Source: an uncultured Candidatus Actinomarina sp.
GTDB taxonomy: Bacteria; Actinomycetota; Acidimicrobiia; Actinomarinales; Actinomarinaceae
Reading direction: 5' to 3'
Assembly (NCBI GenBank): GCA_902615855.1
Contig: CACMQN010000002.1
Location: 62,001-126,000 of the forward strand
DNA: 64,000 bases
Translations under genes and position numbers: made by a program
Part shown: piece after piece, positions 6,065-59,959 of the stretch
Layout: each line of letters begins with the position of its first letter
How positions within the stretch are numbered: the first letter of the stretch is position 1
The notes under the pieces: model-generated
The model's database searches: none
The model's input: only the letters and a program-made list of their open reading frames with translations
Told to the model about the DNA's origin: nothing

Positions 6065-7015
6065 TTAACCAGTTGACTCCACAGCCTCTGTAGTGACTTC
6101 TTCATCTGTTTCTAGAAGTCCACAGTCTTCGAGTACTTCGTCAGTGTTTCCGCCACCAAATACAACTCTCTCAAAAACCACAACCGCGTAAATCTCATCT
6201 TCAGTAAGTTTTCCTGCAAATCCAGGCATTCCACCTATTGATACTTTATTCTCTGCTCCATACGCCGGTCCAACTTCGGCCTGCCAACCTGCAGAGCCTA
6301 ATTCAATCCACAATGCATGATCACTACAAGTTGGAAAAGTTGTATAAAGTTCTCCACCAGTAAAGGCAGGACCTACTCCTCCACCACCATTTACTCCATG
6401 ACAACCAGCACATGCAGCAGCTCCAGAATAAACTTGTTGTCCAAGGGCAATATAATTTATTGAGCTTGCAGATCCAACACCTTTTCCTTCAAATGCTGAT
6501 CCATCACAGTTCACAGTTAATTGAGTTTTTCGATCAACATCTAAAATTCCACTCTCCCCACATTCTTGTGTGGATGATGTATTGACTATCCCAATAACAA
6601 TAAAAAGGGGAATAAGTACAAAGCTAAAATTTAGCCATCTCGGCAAAGATGTTTCAGCATTTACCTTTATATCCAACGTCTTATTTGCGAAGGATACTTT
6701 TTGTATAATTTTTTTAATATTTGCTTGAGAAGATACTACAGATGAACTTTCCTTTTCATCTTTTACAATTTCTGCAGACTCTTCTTTGGATTCTTCTATA
6801 TCAGCTTTGTCTTCAACAGGTGGCGCCGGTTCTTCAGCAGGAGGTGCTTCTTCAGCAGGTTTTTCTGCAGAAGCTACACTCTCACCTCCAGCCCATGATT
6901 GTAAAACTTCATCAACTGTTCTTCCAGAAGCTTCAGCTCTAGCTTCAGCAGATCGTTGCACCAACGACTCTGGTGCATTTAATAATTCAGCAACTTTACT
7001 TAAGAGTTCACTCAT
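6065..7015 (-). CDS. Membrane-anchored monoheme cytochrome c with N-terminal helical tag domain (CcoP-like)
   Basis: Residues 1-48 form a short helical domain (LLSKVAELLNAPESLVQRSA) that also occurs in the next gene and, diverged, in the subunit IV gene at 11212. An A/P/E-rich linker follows, then a membrane helix WLNFSFVLIPLFIVIGIV and an outer cytochrome c domain with the heme site CAGCH and the likely axial methionine in GGMPGFAGKL. Several extra cysteines flank the heme domain (TQECGES, VNCDGS, EDCGLL). It lies last in a three-gene minus operon after CcoN-like and CcoO-like genes, the place of ccoP in a cbb3 operon; normal CcoP has two hemes, this has one. Its likely role is electron transfer between the bc-type complex and another acceptor. 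Confidence 0.8.
   Translation of the reverse strand: MSELLSKVAELLNAPESLVQRSAEARAEASGRTVDEVLQSWAGGESVASAEKPAEEAPPAEEPAPPVEDKADIEESKEESAEIVKDEKESSSVVSSQANIKKIIQKVSFANKTLDIKVNAETSLPRWLNFSFVLIPLFIVIGIVNTSSTQECGESGILDVDRKTQLTVNCDGSAFEGKGVGSASSINYIALGQQVYSGAAACAGCHGVNGGGGVGPAFTGGELYTTFPTCSDHALWIELGSAGWQAEVGPAYGAENKVSIGGMPGFAGKLTEDEIYAVVVFERVVFGGGNTDEVLEDCGLLETDEEVTTEAVESTG
6818..7015 (-). repeat. 198-bp direct repeat, copy 1
   Basis: This segment encodes the first 66 residues of the cytochrome at 6065-7015. By eye it matches 7623-7820 with only two mismatches in 198 bases, while the rest of the two genes is unrelated. The two copies are in the same orientation about 800 bases apart. Confidence 0.9.
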
Positions 7016-7820
7016 TTGTACTTCCTAAAGATAATAAATAAGTTATTAAATAATCTAAATCTTGATTACTTAGGAAATTTACTGATGGATGAGGTATATC
7101 TTCCTTTACAGAAGATGGATCAATTAAATACTCTTTTAGCCAATCTGCATCGTTTGTTGGTTCTCTTGTTCCAAGAGTTGATAAATCGGGAGCTAACCTC
7201 AAAAGGCCTGTATTTTGAATGAGGTTTTTATTGGCAAATCTATTTTTTAATATTTTTCCATTTTGTGAATCAGGTATGAGAATTCTTACATTCTGTGTAT
7301 GACAGGACTGACAATTTAATTGGTTATAGACAATTGCTCCATTTAATATTTCTTCACTTACCCGAACAGAATTATTTAATGATTGTAAGACCACCTCTTC
7401 ACTTTGTTGTTTTGGTATTGAGAAAGCAAATAGGTATGTAAATATAACTACTCCAATCACACCAGCAATAAAACCTAGAGAGCTTTCTTTCTTTATTTCA
7501 ATGTTTTCTTCTTCAATTAAAACCTCTGTAGACATTTCAGAAATAGTTTCTTCAACTACAATTGATAAATCTTCTGTTGATTCCTCTTCTTCCTCATCTG
7601 ATGTAGTTACAGGTTCATCCGTAGGTGGTGCCGGTTCTTCAGCAGGAGGTGCTTCTTCAGCAGGTTTTTCTGCAGAAGCTACACTCTCACCTCCAGCCCA
7701 TGATTGTAAAACTTCATCAACTGTTCTTCCAGAAGCTTCAGCTCTAGCTTCAGCAGATCGTTGCACCAACGACTCTGGTGCATTTAATAATTCAGCAACT
7801 TTACTTAAGAGTGCACTCAT
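7008..7820 (-). CDS. Membrane-anchored CcoO-like cytochrome c with N-terminal helical tag domain
   Basis: The first 66 residues are nearly identical to those of the neighbouring 6065-7015 product. After an acidic linker comes a membrane helix (SLGFIAGVIGVVIFTYLFAF) and a c-type domain with YNQLNCQSCHTQNVRIL, close to the CcoO pattern YxxxGCxxCHTQxxRP. Later motifs LAPDLSTLG and DWLKEYLIDPSSV also fit CcoO. The distal methionine of CcoO (SxMPxY) is absent: the site reads KEDIPHPSV and no methionine follows the heme motif. It overlaps both neighbours (4 bases upstream, 8 downstream), so the three genes are one translation-coupled unit. Confidence 0.78.
   Translation of the reverse strand: MSALLSKVAELLNAPESLVQRSAEARAEASGRTVDEVLQSWAGGESVASAEKPAEEAPPAEEPAPPTDEPVTTSDEEEEESTEDLSIVVEETISEMSTEVLIEEENIEIKKESSLGFIAGVIGVVIFTYLFAFSIPKQQSEEVVLQSLNNSVRVSEEILNGAIVYNQLNCQSCHTQNVRILIPDSQNGKILKNRFANKNLIQNTGLLRLAPDLSTLGTREPTNDADWLKEYLIDPSSVKEDIPHPSVNFLSNQDLDYLITYLLSLGSTNE
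7623..7820 (-). repeat. 198-bp direct repeat, copy 2
   Basis: Second copy, at the 5' end of the CcoO-like gene. The two differences from copy 1 are one base in the linker and one in codon 3 (Ala versus Glu). Identity includes third codon positions, which points to recent duplication or gene conversion. Confidence 0.9.
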
Positions 7821-9220
7821 ACTGGAAGCTCCTCTTCAGTAAGTTCAATTGTTTCTGCTTCTGTAATTTCTCCATTTACTATCGCCTTGACGACTGAAAT
7901 GAAAAACAACAGAAATGGCAGAAGTAATGTCAAAGATAAAAACATATTTAGCGTTAAAGGAGTACTGATTAGTGACCACAATAAACCGAACCCTTCACCA
8001 TAGATTGTTGGGTTTCCTGCATTGGCACCAGCATTCCATGAGTAACCAGAAATAATTCCGATTAAAGCATTAGAAAATAATGTTAAAGACACCACAAGTT
8101 TTAATAGAAAACTAGTTAAAGATTCAAGCCTTGAAAATTTAACTTCTCTTCCAAAGATTTTAGGAATCAAATAATAAACAAATGAGATAGTAATTAATAT
8201 TGCACTGAAAACATACCCATATCTAATTGCTATCTCAAAATTTGTAAGACTCAATATAGGAATGATATTTGAGAGCGAGGACACTATTTGAAAGATATTT
8301 GTTATAACAAATATTCCAAACGAGAAACTTATAAGACTATAAATAACTTTATTCTCGTCAATTCTCGTTGAAACCGTTCTGAAGAAATTTACAGCTATAG
8401 CAAGCACTGGGAGAGACAAACTTATAGACAAGTAAAGAGATATATTTTCTATCCAATTTGGCAATACAGAACCAAAGTAAAATTTAAAATTTGACCAAGG
8501 AATGAGAAACAAGAATCCCCAAAATCCAATAGATCCCAATGTTTTACTGTACAACGTAGCATTTATACCTTTTGTAATCATGAAATGAAGTAATGATAGA
8601 AATACGAACGAATATCCAACATATATATGTGTTGAAACATACATTGAATTAATGAAAAAATTGTCGCTAAATACGACAAAATCAGCTCTATAAATTAGAA
8701 GTGATATCAAATAAAAAATACTTGCACCAAAAAGATACTGACTACTAACAAAGAGAGAAGCTTCTTTTTTGGCCAATATATTTAGAATAACGAGTCCAAC
8801 AAAGGCAAAAAATATTAAGATTTTAAAAATTAATGTATAACTAGTGTTCCCAAAGAACAAAAAACTATCAGGAAATAATATTCCTAATAATAGATCGAGT
8901 GACTCCAATCCGATAACTCCCAATGCAGTTAGAAAAAAAATTGGGAATATTATTAATTTTCTTCCAAGTGTTTTTGGTAATAAGTAAACAGTCAAAAACA
9001 CAATTAAAAATGAAAGCATCAGATTGTAAGTTATATGGTTATTTAGTTTTTCTAAATATCCACTATTGAGAAAACTATTTTGAGGGAGTATGGCTGCAAA
9101 AATGAAATAAGCTTCTTTTGTTAATGCAACAGTTCCTAAAAGAAGGAAAAAAAGTGGAGTTAAAACAATAAAAAATTTTGAAAACGCTTGTTCATTTTTT
9201 GGAAAAATTTTTATTCTCAT
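7817..9220 (-). CDS. Degenerate heme-copper oxidase subunit I-like membrane protein (CcoN-like, most metal ligands missing)
   Basis: A 467-residue protein with about twelve hydrophobic segments, the size of CcoN. From my memory of CcoN, four landmarks align: NHITYNLMLSF with the low-spin heme helix (H62); MYVSTHIYVGYSFVF with the copper helix carrying the first CuB histidine (H198); PWSNFKFYFGSVLPNW with WAGPHHLHYTALPDW without gaps; and EIAIRYGYVFSA-(...)-VYYLIPKIFGRE with the GHVHSGALGW...YxLIPKxFGRE helix. The two CuB histidines become K246 and F247, and the H-x-H heme ligands become A331 and R333. Only three histidines exist in the whole protein. It should not reduce oxygen. It heads an operon with CcoO- and CcoP-like cytochromes. 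Family assignment is inferred; the loss of histidines is read directly. Confidence 0.65.
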   Translation of the reverse strand: MRIKIFPKNEQAFSKFFIVLTPLFFLLLGTVALTKEAYFIFAAILPQNSFLNSGYLEKLNNHITYNLMLSFLIVFLTVYLLPKTLGRKLIIFPIFFLTALGVIGLESLDLLLGILFPDSFLFFGNTSYTLIFKILIFFAFVGLVILNILAKKEASLFVSSQYLFGASIFYLISLLIYRADFVVFSDNFFINSMYVSTHIYVGYSFVFLSLLHFMITKGINATLYSKTLGSIGFWGFLFLIPWSNFKFYFGSVLPNWIENISLYLSISLSLPVLAIAVNFFRTVSTRIDENKVIYSLISFSFGIFVITNIFQIVSSLSNIIPILSLTNFEIAIRYGYVFSAILITISFVYYLIPKIFGREVKFSRLESLTSFLLKLVVSLTLFSNALIGIISGYSWNAGANAGNPTIYGEGFGLLWSLISTPLTLNMFLSLTLLLPFLLFFISVVKAIVNGEITEAETIELTEEELPV

Positions 9221-9389: not shown

Positions 9390-9983
9390 TTGTTAAATTT
9401 TATATTTATTAACCGATACAAAATCGGAGTTGCTTTAATTTTTGCTGGAGTAGGTGGCATAACAATTGGAGTAATTATTGCACATTTCGCTGGATTTCCA
9501 GAAGGCGAAGTAATCGATTATTTTAATTGGATGCCTAGGGGCTGGCTAATGCAAACCATTGGACAACTCATTGCTTTTGGTGCAGGTCAATTTCTATTGA
9601 TTGGAATGGCAATGCTTGCATGGCAAGATTCTGAATTAACTTGGGCTAGAGCAACATATCTGGCATTTCTCAGTTGGATACAATTTGCACTTATATTTGG
9701 TGTATTACCTTCTGAGTGGTTAAACCTTTCTCAAGGACCTCTTGAATGGACAAACCAAAGAGAGTTTATCAACTTTCCTCCAATTTTATTTTTAGGTAAC
9801 GAAATAGGAATGAGCCTCGGAGCTCTGAAAGACATTATTCAACTTGGTATATCAGGTGGAGCATTAGTGACAGCTTTTGTAGTAGGATATCTAATTCAAG
9901 ATATCAACGAAGCAAAAGAAAGAGGAAAAACTAGAGTTTCTGATTACGGAAAACAAGTCGTGAAGGTAGGTGCTGATGGCTAA
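9390..9983 (+). CDS. Membrane protein of the b6f-like reductase operon, function unknown
   Basis: The first gene of the reductase operon encodes 197 residues with about four membrane helices (VALIFAGVGGITIGVIIAHF; LIAFGAGQFLLIGMAML; ATYLAFLSWIQFALIFGVL; LGISGGALVTAFVVGYL) and a charged cytoplasmic tail. The start is TTG at 9390, supported by GAGGG five bases upstream. No cofactor motif is obvious; a loop HFAGFPEGEVIDYFNWMPRG is rich in aromatic residues. It overlaps the ferredoxin gene by eight bases, so the two products are probably made together. I do not recognise the family; it may be an anchoring or quinone-interacting subunit. Confidence 0.75.
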   Translation: MLNFIFINRYKIGVALIFAGVGGITIGVIIAHFAGFPEGEVIDYFNWMPRGWLMQTIGQLIAFGAGQFLLIGMAMLAWQDSELTWARATYLAFLSWIQFALIFGVLPSEWLNLSQGPLEWTNQREFINFPPILFLGNEIGMSLGALKDIIQLGISGGALVTAFVVGYLIQDINEAKERGKTRVSDYGKQVVKVGADG

Positions 9984-10425
9984 ATCAGAAGTACTTATTG
10001 AAATGCCTGAATTTGAAAAAAAATACAATTTAGCCATGGTCGAAGCCGAAAAGGTTTCTTCAAGGGTAAGGCCAAAACAGTTTTTGCATATTGATGAGGC
10101 AGAGTGCATTTTATGTGAAGGATGTGTAGATATCTGTCCATGGAAATGTATACATTACTTATCAACAGAAGCAATAGAAGACTCTATAAACGTTGAAGCT
10201 CCTAACATGGAAGATAATGAAACGGGATTCTTTGTTGTTGATGAAGAAGCTTGTACAAGATGTGCATTATGTGTTGATAGGTGCCCAACAGGGGTTATAT
10301 CGCTTGGTAAGTTTGCTGGATCATTAGCAGATGCGGCAATAAAGAATGGTGTTTATGAATCTCCATGGGATGAAGACTCAGGAGAGAGAAGTGACCGTCA
10401 TGGCTATATATATGGAAGACTTTAA
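9976..10425 (+). CDS. 2[4Fe-4S] ferredoxin of the reductase operon
   Basis: A 149-residue soluble iron-sulfur protein with two complete cluster motifs: CILCEGCVDICPWKC and CTRCALCVDRCPTG. An insertion of about 35 residues (IHYLSTEAIEDSINVEAPN) separates them. ATG 9976 is chosen over the GTG at 9970 because AAGGTAGG lies at correct distance. It overlaps the previous gene by eight bases and its stop shares a base with the cytochrome b start. A ferredoxin in the same operon as a cytochrome b/Rieske complex is unusual; it suggests a low-potential donor or acceptor at the cytoplasmic face. The N-terminal 35 residues do not look like a cluster domain. Confidence 0.9.
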   Translation: MAKSEVLIEMPEFEKKYNLAMVEAEKVSSRVRPKQFLHIDEAECILCEGCVDICPWKCIHYLSTEAIEDSINVEAPNMEDNETGFFVVDEEACTRCALCVDRCPTGVISLGKFAGSLADAAIKNGVYESPWDEDSGERSDRHGYIYGRL

Positions 10426-11204
10426 TGAAAAACGAAAAAATTAAATTTAGAGATCGATTAAAAGATATTAGTTCAGGTCTCGGAGAGTCTTTAAAAGAAA
10501 GTACGCTTTGGGGAAGTATTTTTAGACCAGGATCTCCATTTAGAAAAGGTTATTCAGATAGTCCAAGAAATAGATCATATGTTGTAATGAATAACGTCTT
10601 GTATCATCTCCATCCAGTAAAAGTAAAAAGACATGGTGTCAGATTGTCATATACGCTTTGCTTGGGAGGATTAAGCTTCTTTACATTTATTGTTTTGACT
10701 ATAACTGGTATTTGGTTGATGTTTTATTTTAGACCTACAGAAATGGCATATGTTGATATTCAATCATTACAGACAAGTATTGCGTTTGGATCTCTAGTTA
10801 GAAATATGCACAGGTGGGCTGCGCACATTATGGTGTTAGTAGTGTTTCTTCACATGTCCCGAGTTTTTTATCATGGGGCGTACAAAGCACCTAGAGAGTT
10901 TAACTGGGTGATTGGAGTTATATTACTACTTTTAACACTCCTTCTTTCATTTACTGGTTATCTACTTCCATGGGATCAGTTAGCTATTTGGGCTGTGACA
11001 GTGGGTGGAAATATGGCAGGTTATACTCCCGTTTTTGGTGCTCAAGTTAAGTTTGCGTTATTTGCAGGACTAGAGGCTACTGAAGCAACACTTCTTCGAT
11101 TTTATGTTTTACATGTTCTATTTTTTCCTTTCATCATTGTAATTTTTATGGCAATTCATTTTTGGCGAGTAAGAAAGGATGGAGGAATCTCAGGTCCTCT
11201 ATAG
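10425..11204 (+). CDS. Cytochrome b6-type subunit of quinol-cytochrome c reductase (N-terminal half of cytochrome b)
   Basis: A 259-residue, four-helix cytochrome b of the short b6 type, not the long fused actinobacterial QcrB. Heme ligands sit in MHRWAAHIMVLVVFLHMSRV (H-x13-H) and LHVLFFPFIIVIFMAIHFW (H-x14-H, the b6f spacing). The Qo-region motif GYLLPWDQLAIWAVTVGG is present. In helix A, YTLCLGGLSFFTF aligns with YCLGGIT of cytochrome b6, whose cysteine binds heme c_i covalently; C79 here is at the equivalent spot. About 60 residues precede the first helix. It accepts electrons from menaquinol in the membrane. Start and stop overlap or touch neighbours, so this is one operon. Confidence 0.9.
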   Translation: MKNEKIKFRDRLKDISSGLGESLKESTLWGSIFRPGSPFRKGYSDSPRNRSYVVMNNVLYHLHPVKVKRHGVRLSYTLCLGGLSFFTFIVLTITGIWLMFYFRPTEMAYVDIQSLQTSIAFGSLVRNMHRWAAHIMVLVVFLHMSRVFYHGAYKAPREFNWVIGVILLLLTLLLSFTGYLLPWDQLAIWAVTVGGNMAGYTPVFGAQVKFALFAGLEATEATLLRFYVLHVLFFPFIIVIFMAIHFWRVRKDGGISGPL

Positions 11205-11211
11205 ACATACT

Positions 11212-12036
11212 ATGGTTGATATTCCAGAACATTTATTATTAAAAACTGCTGAAGCAAGAGCCAAGGCCTTAGGTATTTCAGTTGAACAAGCACTGGCAGA
11301 AATGAGAGGTGAAGCTGAGCCTACCAAAATTGAGAAAGAACCAGATGTTATTGAAGTTACTCAAATTGAAGTAGAAGTCAAAGAAACACCGGCACCAGCA
11401 GCTGAAGTCAAAGAAACACCGGCACCAGCAGCTGTAGTAAAAGAAGCACCGGCTCCTGCACCTGAAAAATCAAACGGACAAGTACCTACTGAAGTAGATT
11501 TTGCACCTGAGACAAAAGTAACACAAAGGTTGCTTACGGTCGTCAAAGCAAAGCCAATACAGAAACCAACTTCTGAACCAGTTGATAAAGTAAACACATG
11601 GCCTCATTTAATGTTGCCAGAGTTTATTTCATTAATGGCAATGACAGCATTTTTGATTTTTATAAGTGCAATTTTGCAAGCTCCTTTATTAGAAGAAGCA
11701 AATCCAAACATTACACCAAACCCTGCAAAAGCACCATGGTACTTTTTAGGACTACAAGAATTACTTTCCTATTGGGATCCACAGATCGCAGGTGTGATGA
11801 TACCTCTTCTAATTGGTGTTGCAGCATTTATGGCAATTCCATATATTGATCGAAATAAAGAAAATAAACCTTCAAAAAGAAAATATGCAATAATGTTGTG
11901 GACCTTTTTTCTGGCAGGTGCTGGAACTTTAAGTCTTATCGGTATTTTATTTAGAGGCCCAGGTTGGAACTGGACGTATCCATGGATTGATGGTGTATGG
12001 TTCGATGACTTACTTGACTGGGTCCATTTCGAATGA
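11212..12036 (+). CDS. Cytochrome b subunit IV-type protein with N-terminal helical tag domain and repeat linker
   Basis: The C-terminal ~125 residues hold the second half of cytochrome b (subunit IV/PetD): TWPHLMLPEFISLMAM, then the PEWY-equivalent region KAPWYFLGLQELLSYWDP, and three membrane helices. The N-terminal ~45 residues (DIPEHLLLKTAEARAKALGI) are a helical domain related to the start of the two cytochromes at 6065-7820. The linker carries a tandem repeat EVKETPAPAA. ATG 11212 is preferred because it gives the tag domain its family start (MVDIPEHLL); the ORF track start at 11179 would overlap the previous gene by 26 bases. It completes the quinol-binding site with the b6-type subunit. 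Confidence 0.85.
   Translation: MVDIPEHLLLKTAEARAKALGISVEQALAEMRGEAEPTKIEKEPDVIEVTQIEVEVKETPAPAAEVKETPAPAAVVKEAPAPAPEKSNGQVPTEVDFAPETKVTQRLLTVVKAKPIQKPTSEPVDKVNTWPHLMLPEFISLMAMTAFLIFISAILQAPLLEEANPNITPNPAKAPWYFLGLQELLSYWDPQIAGVMIPLLIGVAAFMAIPYIDRNKENKPSKRKYAIMLWTFFLAGAGTLSLIGILFRGPGWNWTYPWIDGVWFDDLLDWVHFE
11374..11463 (+). repeat. 30-bp tandem repeat in the subunit IV linker
   Basis: Two exact 30-base copies (11374-11403, 11404-11433) encode EVKETPAPAA and a third, diverged copy (11434-11463) encodes VVKEAPAPAP. The Pro-Ala linker probably keeps the N-terminal domain away from the membrane. Copy number could vary among strains. Confidence 0.9.
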
Positions 12037-12911
12037 CTCTTGTTGAGCTTTCATTTATTGCAATTGCATTTATTGGCGTATTTGGTGTGATTGGAATTGC
12101 AGCTGTAGTAACTGGAAGAACCCCAAAAGCTGTAACAAAAAGATTAAATTGGAAAAAGAATTTAGATAAAAAAGCTTTAAAAGTTGATAAATCTCAAACA
12201 AATTTTTTAGCTCCAGATGAACCAGATTTTGAAGAAGAAAACGTATCTGAAGATAATGAACAAGATGAAGAAGAAATTCAAACCGATGGATCCATTGCAA
12301 TAAAAGAAGAAATAATTTATGAAGAAATTTCAGAAGAAGAAGCTGGAATGACTCGTAGACAATTTTTGGGTAAAGCCCTTGGAATCACGTTTGGAGCATT
12401 TGCTGGTATCCAATTAATTTCTTGGCTTGGATTCTTTTATCCAAAAGTTTCCGGAGGTTTTGGATCTAAAATAGATGCTGGAAGAGTTGATGACCTTAAA
12501 GACCAAATTTTCCAATCAGACGGTTCAGTTATACCTGCATTCATTCCAGAAGCAAGAGCTTATGTTTTACCATTTGATGACAATGGTAACTCTCAGTTTT
12601 CTGATAGTGGAACTATTGCAGACGGTTTAGTTGCTGTTTATCAACGATGCGTTCATTTAGGTTGTCGTGTTCCATGGTGCAACACCTCTCAAGGATTTGA
12701 ATGTCCATGTCATGGTTCAAAATACAACATGGTTGGTGAGTATTACGCAGGTCCTGCTCCAAGGAACTTAGATAGGTTTATTGTAAGTGTTTCAGGAGGA
12801 AAATTAATTATCGACACAGGATCAGTTATAGAATCACCTCGAGCTGATGGTATGTCTGTGAAATATCCACAAGGTCTTTCATGTATTACAATCGCTGAGA
12901 CTGAGGAATAA
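12033..12911 (+). CDS. qcrA: Rieske iron-sulfur subunit of the reductase
   Basis: A 292-residue Rieske protein. Cluster ligands are in QRCVHLGCRVPWC (C206, H208) and FECPCHGSKYN (C224, H227), with C211 and C226 placed for the usual disulfide. An N-terminal membrane helix (residues 5-27) is followed by a long acidic linker and then by MTRRQFLGKALGITFGAFAG at about residue 106, a Tat-like signal ahead of the last membrane segment. This combined Sec/Tat topology is known for actinobacterial QcrA. The soluble domain faces outward and passes electrons from quinol to cytochrome c. It overlaps the subunit IV stop by four bases. No insertion or missing ligand is seen. Confidence 0.93.
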   Translation: MTLVELSFIAIAFIGVFGVIGIAAVVTGRTPKAVTKRLNWKKNLDKKALKVDKSQTNFLAPDEPDFEEENVSEDNEQDEEEIQTDGSIAIKEEIIYEEISEEEAGMTRRQFLGKALGITFGAFAGIQLISWLGFFYPKVSGGFGSKIDAGRVDDLKDQIFQSDGSVIPAFIPEARAYVLPFDDNGNSQFSDSGTIADGLVAVYQRCVHLGCRVPWCNTSQGFECPCHGSKYNMVGEYYAGPAPRNLDRFIVSVSGGKLIIDTGSVIESPRADGMSVKYPQGLSCITIAETEE

Positions 12912-12913
12912 AT

Positions 12914-14338
12914 ATGAACAGCTCGTTTTTCATAACATTAATCGCCTTAGCAGTAGTTGGTGCAATTGCTTATTTTTCTGCAGTTGGTTTCCGTGGTGCA
13001 GGAAAAATCAAAAAAGTACCTAGAAATTTACAAAAATATCTTCCAGATGATGAATTAGAAACTACTCATCTTGATAAAACATTATCAATAGCAGTTGTGC
13101 TAGCTTCGTTACTTACAATTATGATTCCACTTTATTATCTCGGCGAACCAGCTAGACAAGAAAGTTTTGTAGAAGAGTTTGATGACGTTTCAGTTGAAAG
13201 AGGGCACCATCTTTACGAAGAGTTTGGGTGCGGAAACTGCCATGGAGTAGATGGAAGTGGTGGAGCTGCTTCATATGTTGAAAAAAGAAGTGGTGTAAGT
13301 GTTACATGGTCAGCCCCTGCAATAAACAATGTGTTTTATAGATATGATGATGAAGAAGTTAGGTATTGGCTAATATACGGTAGAGCAAACTCACCTATGC
13401 CAGCTTGGGGTCTAAAAGGCGGAGGCCCAATGAACGATGGACAGCTTGACGACTTGATAGAGTACTTGCATTATTTTCAAATTCCACAAAATGAAGAACT
13501 TCAACAAATTGAACAAAATATAAACTCATCTTTGCTACGAATTGAAAATTCTGATTTACAGGTTGAAAGTGAAATTGAAAAACAAAATGACCTTATCAAT
13601 GACATTAAGGCAGCTCCAGAAAGATTACCCGTAGCAATTGAAGCCGTTGAAATTGTATCTGCGATACTAGCAAGGCAGAATGGAATCGATACTGATGAAG
13701 ACGGGCTTTTTGATTCAGTAGAAACAGATATATCAGCTTATAGTGAAAGTGTTGCAGATGTTTTGGGTACTGCAATTTTAAATCTAAATCCAGATGAAGA
13801 AGAATCAACTCCAGGAAGAAAAGACGCATCAGTTGTTAGGGGATACCTTTCTGATCTTGAAACGAGTGTTATTAATTTAGGAATCCTTACTGATGGCTAT
13901 GACAAATTTATGGATGAAGCTGAAAAAGGTTTAGCATTTCTTGAAAATGCCTATGAACAAAAATTATGGCTTATTGATTTCCAAAACATTGCTGATTCAA
14001 CCTTTGATGGAGACTATGATAAAGCAACAAGAGCAGTAGGAATATTTAATGCATATTGTGCGAGGTGTCACACTGCTGGTTATTCTGCAGGAGCTGCATA
14101 TACAAAAATCATTGGTTCTGGAGGCTTGGGGCCTGCATTAAAAGGTGGACGAGTAAATATTCAATTTAAAGAGAGAGCCGACTTTGTTGATTTTATTATT
14201 AACGGTTCTGTCAATGGTAAAGGCTATGGAGTCAATGGAGTCGGTGGAGGAAAAATGCCAGGATTTGGTGCGGTACTTCCACAGTCAGATATAGAATTGG
14301 TTATAGATTATTTGAGAGGAATGACACCTGATGCGTGA
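12914..14338 (+). CDS. Membrane-anchored diheme cytochrome c subunit with central coiled-coil insertion
   Basis: A 474-residue protein with two N-terminal membrane helices (about 5-24 and 55-77) and two c-type domains. Heme 1 is GCGNCHGVDGSGG (106-110) with a likely axial Met in SPMPAWG; heme 2 is YCARCHTAGYS (382-386) with GGKMPGFGA. Between them lie about 180 residues of predicted helical, charged sequence (NEELQQIEQNINSSL) holding a calcium-loop-like stretch, DTDEDGLFDSVETD. The role should be that of QcrC or cytochrome c1, taking electrons from the Rieske protein and passing them to an oxidase. The long central insert is not standard for QcrC. Two bases separate it from qcrA. Confidence 0.88.
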   Translation: MNSSFFITLIALAVVGAIAYFSAVGFRGAGKIKKVPRNLQKYLPDDELETTHLDKTLSIAVVLASLLTIMIPLYYLGEPARQESFVEEFDDVSVERGHHLYEEFGCGNCHGVDGSGGAASYVEKRSGVSVTWSAPAINNVFYRYDDEEVRYWLIYGRANSPMPAWGLKGGGPMNDGQLDDLIEYLHYFQIPQNEELQQIEQNINSSLLRIENSDLQVESEIEKQNDLINDIKAAPERLPVAIEAVEIVSAILARQNGIDTDEDGLFDSVETDISAYSESVADVLGTAILNLNPDEEESTPGRKDASVVRGYLSDLETSVINLGILTDGYDKFMDEAEKGLAFLENAYEQKLWLIDFQNIADSTFDGDYDKATRAVGIFNAYCARCHTAGYSAGAAYTKIIGSGGLGPALKGGRVNIQFKERADFVDFIINGSVNGKGYGVNGVGGGKMPGFGAVLPQSDIELVIDYLRGMTPDA

Positions 14339-14699
14339 AATAATGAGAACCCTTTTGTCATCTAATTTGACATTTACTGGAATTTTCCTTTTTGTTTTTT
14401 TTGTTCTCTCATTTTTTGGATCAACTTTTATTTTGAACGCAACAAATTTAGGTAGAAGACTTGGCTTCCTTGTTGTTGGAGCCGCAACTTTTGGATGGCT
14501 AGTTATTAATTCTTTTCTGTTTATACTTTATGCTCCAAGGGGTCCAGCGCCATCCTCAATAGATGGTCTAAATGCTCTAGAAATCAGAATTATTCCAATA
14601 ACTTATTTTGCTGGATCTTTAATACTTTTTATTATGTTCATGCTTGCTTTAAATAGATACGAACAAGAAGAAAAAAACACAGAAGAAACAAATAGTTAA
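14331..14699 (+). CDS. Small three-helix membrane protein at the end of the reductase operon
   Basis: A 122-residue protein with three hydrophobic segments (FTGIFLFVFFVLSFFGSTFIL; LGFLVVGAATFGWLVINSFLF; IPITYFAGSLILFIMFMLAL) and a charged C-terminal tail. It overlaps the diheme cytochrome stop by eight bases. No motif identifies it. Its position suggests an accessory subunit of the reductase. The loop YAPRGPAPSSIDGLNALE between helices 2 and 3 would be outward or cytoplasmic depending on topology. Confidence 0.7.
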   Translation: MREIMRTLLSSNLTFTGIFLFVFFVLSFFGSTFILNATNLGRRLGFLVVGAATFGWLVINSFLFILYAPRGPAPSSIDGLNALEIRIIPITYFAGSLILFIMFMLALNRYEQEEKNTEETNS

Positions 14700-59296: not shown

Positions 59297-59959
59297 ATGG
59301 AAGAACTAACATACCGACTTTTCATGGTGGCAACTGTGGGAATGCTTGCAGGAACAGTATTTTTACTTGCTTCATCAAGAGAAGTTAAACCAGAACACAG
59401 ACGTGGTGTTTATATTTCAGCACTTGTCTGTGGTATTGCATGGTATCACTATCAAAAGATGGGTGCATCTTGGGAAAGTGGAGCATACGATACAGGGTTA
59501 AGATACGTTGACTGGGTCTTAACTGTTCCTTTGATGTTCGTCGAAGTCCTTGCAGTTACAAGAAAGGGTGCCGCATACAATGAGGCAGTCCGTAACTGGG
59601 GAATTGCAGCAACAGTAATGATTGGTGCAGGATACTACGGTGAAACATCAGCAGCAGGAAGCAACGAATATTGGACAGGTTTCGTAATTGCTATGGCAAC
59701 TTACGTCTGGCTAATGAGAAATCTTCAAGCTGAAGGAGAAGGTCTTAAAGGTGATGAAGCAGCAGCTTTTGAAAATATTAAGAACCTAATCCTTGTAGGT
59801 TGGATAATTTATCCTTTGGGATACATTGCACCTGTAGTAGGAGACTTTGATGCTATTAGAGAAGTTCTATACACAGTCGCTGACATAATTAATAAGGTCG
59901 GACTTGGTGTACTAGTACTACAAATGGCTCGAGTTAAGTCAGGAGAAAAAGTTTCGTAA
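59297..59959 (+). CDS. Proton-pumping rhodopsin, marine actinobacterial type, green-type tuning residue
   Basis: A 220-residue, seven-helix light-driven proton pump. Helix C reads RYVDWVLTVPLMFVEVL: D72 is the proton acceptor, M80 sits at the colour-tuning site (Met is green-type), E83 is the proton donor. The retinal lysine is K200 in VADIINKVGLG. Helices B and F show GIAWYHYQKM and GWIIYPLGYIAP. The sequence matches the marine actinobacterial clade as I know it. SD AAAGGAG, strong terminator and rich codon use point to high expression. No retinal synthesis genes are in the window. Confidence 0.95.
   Translation: MEELTYRLFMVATVGMLAGTVFLLASSREVKPEHRRGVYISALVCGIAWYHYQKMGASWESGAYDTGLRYVDWVLTVPLMFVEVLAVTRKGAAYNEAVRNWGIAATVMIGAGYYGETSAAGSNEYWTGFVIAMATYVWLMRNLQAEGEGLKGDEAAAFENIKNLILVGWIIYPLGYIAPVVGDFDAIREVLYTVADIINKVGLGVLVLQMARVKSGEKVS

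Follow-up and report, generated by a model that had tools for sequence, protein, structure and literature searches.

A cbb3-type oxidase subunit I homolog without the known metal ligands is conserved beside a ferredoxin-bearing bc cluster in Acidimicrobiia

INTRODUCTION

Few membrane enzymes have been studied as intensively as subunit I of the heme-copper oxidases, which is treated as being defined by its metal ligands. The stretch of DNA analyzed here (64,000 nucleotides, referred to as the window), from an uncultured Candidatus Actinomarina sp., carries a gene whose product resembles CcoN, the catalytic subunit of cbb3 oxidases, and for which an initial annotation, made without database searches, proposed that the oxygen-reducing site had been lost. 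The questions raised by this locus are whether this protein, designated CcoN*, is indeed a relative of CcoN, which cofactors, if any, it could still bind, and what function it may serve. The draft genome from which the window derives comprises 1.07 Mb in 20 contigs and is 83% complete; the window has a G+C content of 33.6%, and its locus shares 96 to 98% protein identity with Candidatus Actinomarina single-cell genomes and metagenome-assembled genomes. CcoN* and the two cytochrome genes beside it are as follows.

7817 to 9220, minus strand: CcoN*, 467 amino acids, a cbb3 subunit I homolog with 12 transmembrane helices in which the six heme/CuB histidines and the cross-link tyrosine are replaced
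7008 to 7820, minus strand: CcoO*, a mono-heme cytochrome c with one transmembrane helix, related to CcoO/FixO; CxxCH is kept and the axial methionine is replaced by histidine (IPHPSV)
6065 to 7015, minus strand: CcoP-like partner cytochrome c, membrane anchored and mono-heme, with CxxCH and GGMP kept

RESULTS AND DISCUSSION

CcoN* is a homolog of CcoN

The initial annotation had recommended a profile search and a structural overlay on a cbb3 oxidase, and had named a fold other than that of the heme-copper oxidases, or a much better match to another family, as grounds for refutation; neither was encountered. The Pfam COX1 profile (PF00115) matched CcoN* at 42.5 bits, above its cutoff of 34.8, and the CcoN profile TIGR00780 matched at 42 bits, far below its cutoff of 583, which was not reached in any of 395 Acidimicrobiia genomes; the protein is, therefore, to be regarded as a homolog of CcoN and not as an annotated CcoN. 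In a phmmer search, the only PDB matches were CcoN chains (3mk7 and others), and a family profile built from 66 relatives, A2, matched CcoN chains over their full length with an E value of 1e-79, with NorB second at 8e-13, in agreement with the annotated alignment to CcoN across all 467 residues. The AlphaFold2 model (pLDDT, 90.6; pTM, 0.92) retrieved CcoN as the top Foldseek match at TM scores of 0.81 to 0.85, followed by ba3, NOR, and aa3 structures. On the strength of the profile matches, the model, and the Foldseek ranking, kinship with CcoN and the heme-copper superfamily fold, as defined by a subunit I fold of 12 transmembrane helices and a significant profile match, are established, the fold resting on a predicted structure. 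Other families were ruled out as better matches, CcoN being first in both the profile and the Foldseek searches.

The ligands of both hemes and of CuB are replaced

To assess the metal-binding positions, 97 distinct CcoN* relatives (33 from Actinomarina and 64 from other Acidimicrobiia) were aligned with two annotated rhizobial CcoN sequences (L142 and L143), and positions are given in Pseudomonas stutzeri numbering. H207, H257, and H258 have been reported as ligands (PMC3578206); H60, H347, and H349 are the remaining ligand positions, and Y251 is the cross-link position. In the window, the corresponding residues are N60 (H60), S196 (H207), I240 (Y251), K246 (H257), F247 (H258), I332 (H347), and Y334 (H349). 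No histidine was present at the positions of H60, H207, H258, H347, or H349 in any of the 97 sequences, and a single isolated histidine was found at that of H257. Consequently, neither the two histidines needed for a low-spin heme (H60 and H349) nor the histidine needed for a high-spin heme (H347) is available, and, that one H257 histidine aside, the three histidines and the tyrosine of a CuB site are likewise replaced, Y251 being replaced in the family. An inspection of all columns for a conserved histidine, cysteine, or methionine that might act as a substitute ligand yielded none in the 64 non-Actinomarina sequences.

The alignment with rhizobial CcoN bears out the annotated placement of K246 and F247 at both CuB histidine sites, the loss of the H-x-H motif in the last heme helix, and the retention of the flanking LIPKxFGRE. 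The loss of these histidines in homologs, which had been put forward as a check, extends to all 97 sequences but for the isolated one. The proposal that H62 and H198 remain at the low-spin heme and first copper positions did not hold; both are offset by two residues from the ligand sites, with some uncertainty in local gap placement, H62 being a glutamine in other Actinomarina lineages and H198 being invariant in Actinomarina and absent from the rest of the class. The conclusion that heme b3 and CuB cannot be held was thus upheld and extends further. As the low-spin heme ligands are also lost, the known sites of CcoN* are probably occupied by neither heme nor copper, and the absence of the low-spin heme, the high-spin heme, and CuB is likely, although this is a prediction made from sequence alone.

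It remains possible, though not likely, that CcoN* is redox active through a non-canonical cofactor housed in the emptied pockets, most plausibly menaquinone or a heme whose ligation varies by lineage. The emptied fold could leave cavities, the motifs G-x-x-x-G-Y-S-W-x-A-G-x-N and G-E-G-F are conserved, and H198 is fixed in Actinomarina; against this, no histidine, cysteine, or methionine column is conserved class-wide, and the retained motifs consist chiefly of glycine, tryptophan, and aromatic residues, in part at structural positions of CcoN. A second alternative, that the oxidase fold serves as a proton or ion channel without redox chemistry, draws on the presence of proton paths in heme-copper oxidases, but is very improbable, since neither the cross-link tyrosine nor a counterpart of the channel-entry glutamate is retained, the substitutes being mostly hydrophobic residues.

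CcoN* is an ancient family under purifying selection

When ccoN* of the window was compared pairwise with that of eight Actinomarina relatives for which dS was usable, dN/dS values were 0.04 to 0.13, within the range of the adjoining cytochromes and somewhat higher than that of qcrB, and the gene is therefore not decaying. Dozens of genomes and single cells, obtained independently, carry the gene with an intact frame at the same locus. The long Actinomarina stem in the tree (3.1) might be read as a sign of a decaying pseudogene; that explanation, along with a frameshift or a mis-assembled contig, is all but excluded by these observations.

Where the initial annotation described a single case, a class survey of 246 Acidimicrobiia genomes, each at least 80% complete, identified CcoN* in 92, and a draw across the phylum Actinomycetota returned ten strongly matching genomes outside the class, of which five were ligand-free (f66, f70, and f96) and five ligand-bearing (f76, f77, and f85). 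CcoN* is thus a family conserved in Acidimicrobiia that also extends to a few other members of the Actinomycetota. The ligand-free sequences fall on one side of a single branch of the tree (support, 100/99; present in 100% of bootstrap trees), and the simplest history is one in which the ligands were lost once and anciently. With purifying selection in the absence of catalytic residues, and one ancient loss, CcoN* meets the definition of a pseudo-enzyme.

A seemingly intact CcoN from the class (L084/L094, genome G150) proved to have a canonical N terminus that runs on into unrelated sequence, and its contig is short; it was treated as contamination and excluded. A contig assigned to Bacteroidetes, L006, bears the locus of Actinomarina at an identity of 87%, in all likelihood because it was wrongly binned.

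CcoO* retains its heme motif and is frequently fused to CcoN*

CcoO* retains CxxCH-TQ-x-VR and GPDL. Its axial ligand is histidine in all 14 distinct Actinomarina sequences; among 59 sequences from outside Actinomarina, methionine (32), histidine (24), and glutamine (3) are found. The ligand switches by lineage, being methionine in the fused forms described below and histidine (or glutamine) in most unfused forms. The change from methionine to histidine may indicate that the potential of CcoO* has been tuned, which is an inference from sequence alone.

In 22 lineages, CcoN* and CcoO* are encoded as a single open reading frame in which the CcoO heme motifs are invariant, and NCBIfam assigns these fusions to a fused subunit I/II architecture. 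The presence of a mono-heme CcoO subunit beside or fused to subunit I, a criterion for cbb3 oxidases, is therefore satisfied. Because the CcoO* part of a modeled fusion was of low confidence, the placement of CcoO* on CcoN* is not shown.

The starts of the two cytochrome genes are near-identical:

7620 to 7820, minus strand: repeated N-terminal coding stretch of CcoO*, matching the beginning of the cytochrome c gene (6815 to 7015) at 196 of 201 bases

Such identity could reflect gene conversion. In L008, L010, L018, and L028, both genes seem to be merged across this repeat, with ccoO* missing, which might represent either a real deletion or an assembly collapse. A short N-terminal domain with the pattern xPExLLxRSAEARAxAxG is common to CcoO*, the cytochrome c, the C-terminal half of the cytochrome b described below, and a protein with seven transmembrane helices of unknown family, encoded downstream of the caa3 oxidase cluster (L183, 13173 to 14264). 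This domain may act as an assembly or docking tag.

CcoN* is linked to a ferredoxin-bearing bc cluster

In Actinomarina and in distant families, ccoN*, ccoO*, and the cytochrome c gene occupy one strand, with a bc cluster divergently oriented in the order given here for the window.

9390 to 9983, plus strand: m9390, a bc-cluster membrane protein with no Pfam family above cutoff
9970 to 10425, plus strand: ferredoxin subunit carrying two 4Fe-4S motifs, without a visible signal peptide
10425 to 11204, plus strand: cytochrome b, N-terminal half, b6-like/ExtP-like
11179 to 12036, plus strand: cytochrome b, C-terminal half, extended at its N terminus by a segment bearing the shared domain
12033 to 12911, plus strand: Rieske iron-sulfur protein, b6f-like
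12914 to 14338, plus strand: di-heme cytochrome c with two CxxCH motifs, QcrC/CcoP-like
14331 to 14699, plus strand: small membrane protein of approximately three transmembrane helices, a conserved member of the bc cluster

The annotated proximity of CcoO- and CcoP-like cytochromes and of a quinol reductase, here the bc complex, was thus confirmed. Two loci (L092 and L126) depart from this order, the CcoN* and bc genes lying a few kilobases apart and m9390 not being found. The bc complex of the window is b6-like (cytochrome b6 E value, 8e-45), with an ExtP-like score of 287.8 bits against a cutoff of 290. A gene for a ferredoxin with two [4Fe-4S] clusters accompanies the bc complex in nearly all related loci, including those outside the class; such a ferredoxin-bc complex has, to our knowledge, not been described in these bacteria.

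A long form of m9390, defined by a score of at least 196 bits, was present in 93 of the 246 genomes surveyed, co-occurring with CcoN* in 90, with neither found in 151; the two are, therefore, together in 90 of the 95 genomes having either (Fisher P = 7e-61, uncorrected for shared ancestry, which partly accounts for it). Among the exceptions, CcoN* occurs without long m9390 in G006 and G012, and long m9390 without CcoN* in G070, G073, and G254, where the contigs end at or near m9390 on the side on which CcoN* would be expected. In all six CcoN*-free genomes inspected, a short m9390 accompanies the ferredoxin-bc genes, and a lone cytochrome c gene occupies the divergent position in most of these loci. 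As the short forms lack, in most genomes, the first 40 to 55 profile positions, the extra N-terminal membrane segment of long m9390 is a candidate docking site for CcoN*, a tentative inference for which there are no interaction data.

A separate caa3 oxidase is encoded

The genome encodes an intact caa3 oxidase, thereby meeting the suggestion that a second, intact oxidase be sought. Its CtaC carries a CuA motif and a CxxCH domain, CtaD retains HPEVY, WAHH, and HFH, and CtaE and CtaG are also present. No intact cbb3 oxidase was detected in the draft genome, PF00115 matching only the caa3 COX1 and CcoN*. Given these caa3 genes, oxygen reduction does not need CcoN*. The adjoining CcoO- and cytochrome c-like genes, arranged as in cbb3 operons, might suggest that CcoN* is still an oxidase or a nitric oxide reductase with unusual ligands. 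This is very unlikely, as the family has retained neither the tyrosine nor the histidines at the six positions and shows no conserved histidine, cysteine, or methionine in their stead, and the second oxidase accounts for respiration.

Proposed role of CcoN*

We propose, with a confidence only slightly better than even (approximately 0.55), that CcoN* functions as a cofactor-free scaffold which holds a relay of c-type cytochromes on the bc complex. The basis of this inferred function is that the fold, the partner cytochrome, and the linkage to the bc cluster are kept, with the metal ligands and the examined channel-linked residues lost. In this scenario, a cbb3-like NO(P) module would have been present in an ancestor shared by Acidimicrobiia and a small number of related Actinomycetota, and from this module all heme b, heme b3, and CuB ligands were lost in a single event, the fold of 12 transmembrane helices and the cytochrome partner being retained. 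Devoid of redox cofactors, CcoN* would then serve as a membrane platform, docking on long m9390 and keeping CcoO* and the membrane-anchored cytochrome c up against the b6-like bc complex that contains the ferredoxin. Electrons would pass from the Rieske protein and the di-heme cytochrome of the bc complex, via the fixed c-type hemes, to the CuA/cytochrome c domain of the caa3 oxidase.

Alternatively, CcoN*O* may not be a stable subunit but a factor for the assembly or maturation of the caa3 oxidase or of c-type cytochromes. In favor of this, the genome retains a caa3 oxidase, functional as judged by its genes, that requires assembly, and the shared N-terminal domain occurs on proteins of both clusters. 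However, the presence of CcoN* tracks the long-form bc cluster, the caa3 cluster has its own CtaG, and in the CcoN*-CcoO* fusions the heme c motif and CcoN* share one polypeptide, an indication of a stoichiometric redox subunit. On account of these fusions and of the co-occurrence with a bc-cluster protein, a stable subunit is favored, and an assembly role is considered unlikely. The annotated suggestion of a repurposed electron-transfer or assembly subunit was, therefore, in the right direction, a permanent subunit being the preferred form of it; that of an undescribed complex is consistent with the open-access literature searched, the coverage of which was incomplete and in which no description of the CcoN* family was found.

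Several considerations weigh against the scaffold-and-relay reading. There is no biochemical evidence for the complex or for the electron path, which are inferred from gene order and co-occurrence. As CcoN*O* is absent from most Acidimicrobiia, a bc-caa3 chain in itself does not require the relay, and what the chain would gain from it is unexplained. Moreover, the axial methionine is replaced by histidine in many CcoO* proteins, which should lower their potential, an unexpected property in a relay running downhill to the caa3 oxidase. A bolder reading, which we regard as unlikely, is that the ferredoxin-bc complex, CcoN*O*, and the cytochrome c form a distinct respiratory complex and not a mere relay to the caa3 oxidase, CcoN* leaving space for a separate branch in which a low-potential, bis-histidine heme c in CcoO* exchanges electrons with the bc complex. 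If true, this would permit electrons to branch or to flow in reverse in a ferredoxin- or menaquinol-linked manner.

Comparison with known systems

CcoN* resembles the CcoN/FixN subunit of cbb3 oxidases (3mk7, 8smr, and 6xkw) in its full-length profile match, its fold of 12 transmembrane helices, and the CcoO-type mono-heme cytochrome next to it, and differs in lacking the heme b, heme b3, and CuB ligands and the cross-link tyrosine. No canonical CcoP/CcoQ/CcoS set was seen adjoining it, and it lies next to a bc complex. The bc1-cbb3 supercomplexes of Rhodobacter capsulatus and Pseudomonas aeruginosa (6xkw and 8smr; PMC7876108) similarly combine a bc complex, a CcoN-type subunit, and membrane c cytochromes, but their CcoN is a working oxidase, which CcoN* cannot be by its residues, and here a separate caa3 oxidase is present. 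In the actinobacterial bcc-aa3 supercomplex (QcrCAB and CtaCDEF), membrane c hemes fix the path from the bc complex to an A-type oxidase; in contrast, the cytochrome b of the window is split and b6/ExtP-like, and a ferredoxin subunit and the CcoN*O* module are added. The cbb3-like oxidase of Nitrospina gracilis has unusual residues near CuB with most binding sites kept (PMC3578206), whereas all ligand positions are replaced in the CcoN* of the window.

The nearest ligand-bearing relatives in the phylum search with profile A2 are the cbb3-like proteins of other Actinomycetota, f76, f77, and f85 (L155 to L158 and L160), which, unlike CcoN*, have all histidines present. The next gene encodes a FixO-cytochrome fusion with five CxxCH motifs in f76 and f77 and a cytochrome with two in f85, and no ferredoxin-bc cluster was found in the stretch inspected. 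In L169 to L172, the FixO-type subunit of ligand-bearing cbb3-like enzymes of other Actinomycetota forms a fusion with multiple cytochrome c domains, with five CxxCH motifs.

The loss of the ligands with retention of the fold would imply that a subunit once catalytic can take on a structural or docking role in respiration, a function that is inferred here and a fate which is surprising for a respiratory enzyme, and CcoN* is kept even in Actinomarina, with a genome of near 1.1 Mb. The family offers a natural ligand-free control for the function of the fold apart from catalysis, calls for caution before ccoN*-like genes are annotated as terminal oxidases, and draws attention to a ferredoxin-bearing bc-type complex of abundant marine bacteria that is apparently uncharacterized. 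Elsewhere in the window, a rhodopsin gene is located at positions 59297 to 59959 (Pfam Bac_rhodopsin E value, 4e-31), as is expected for marine Actinomarina.
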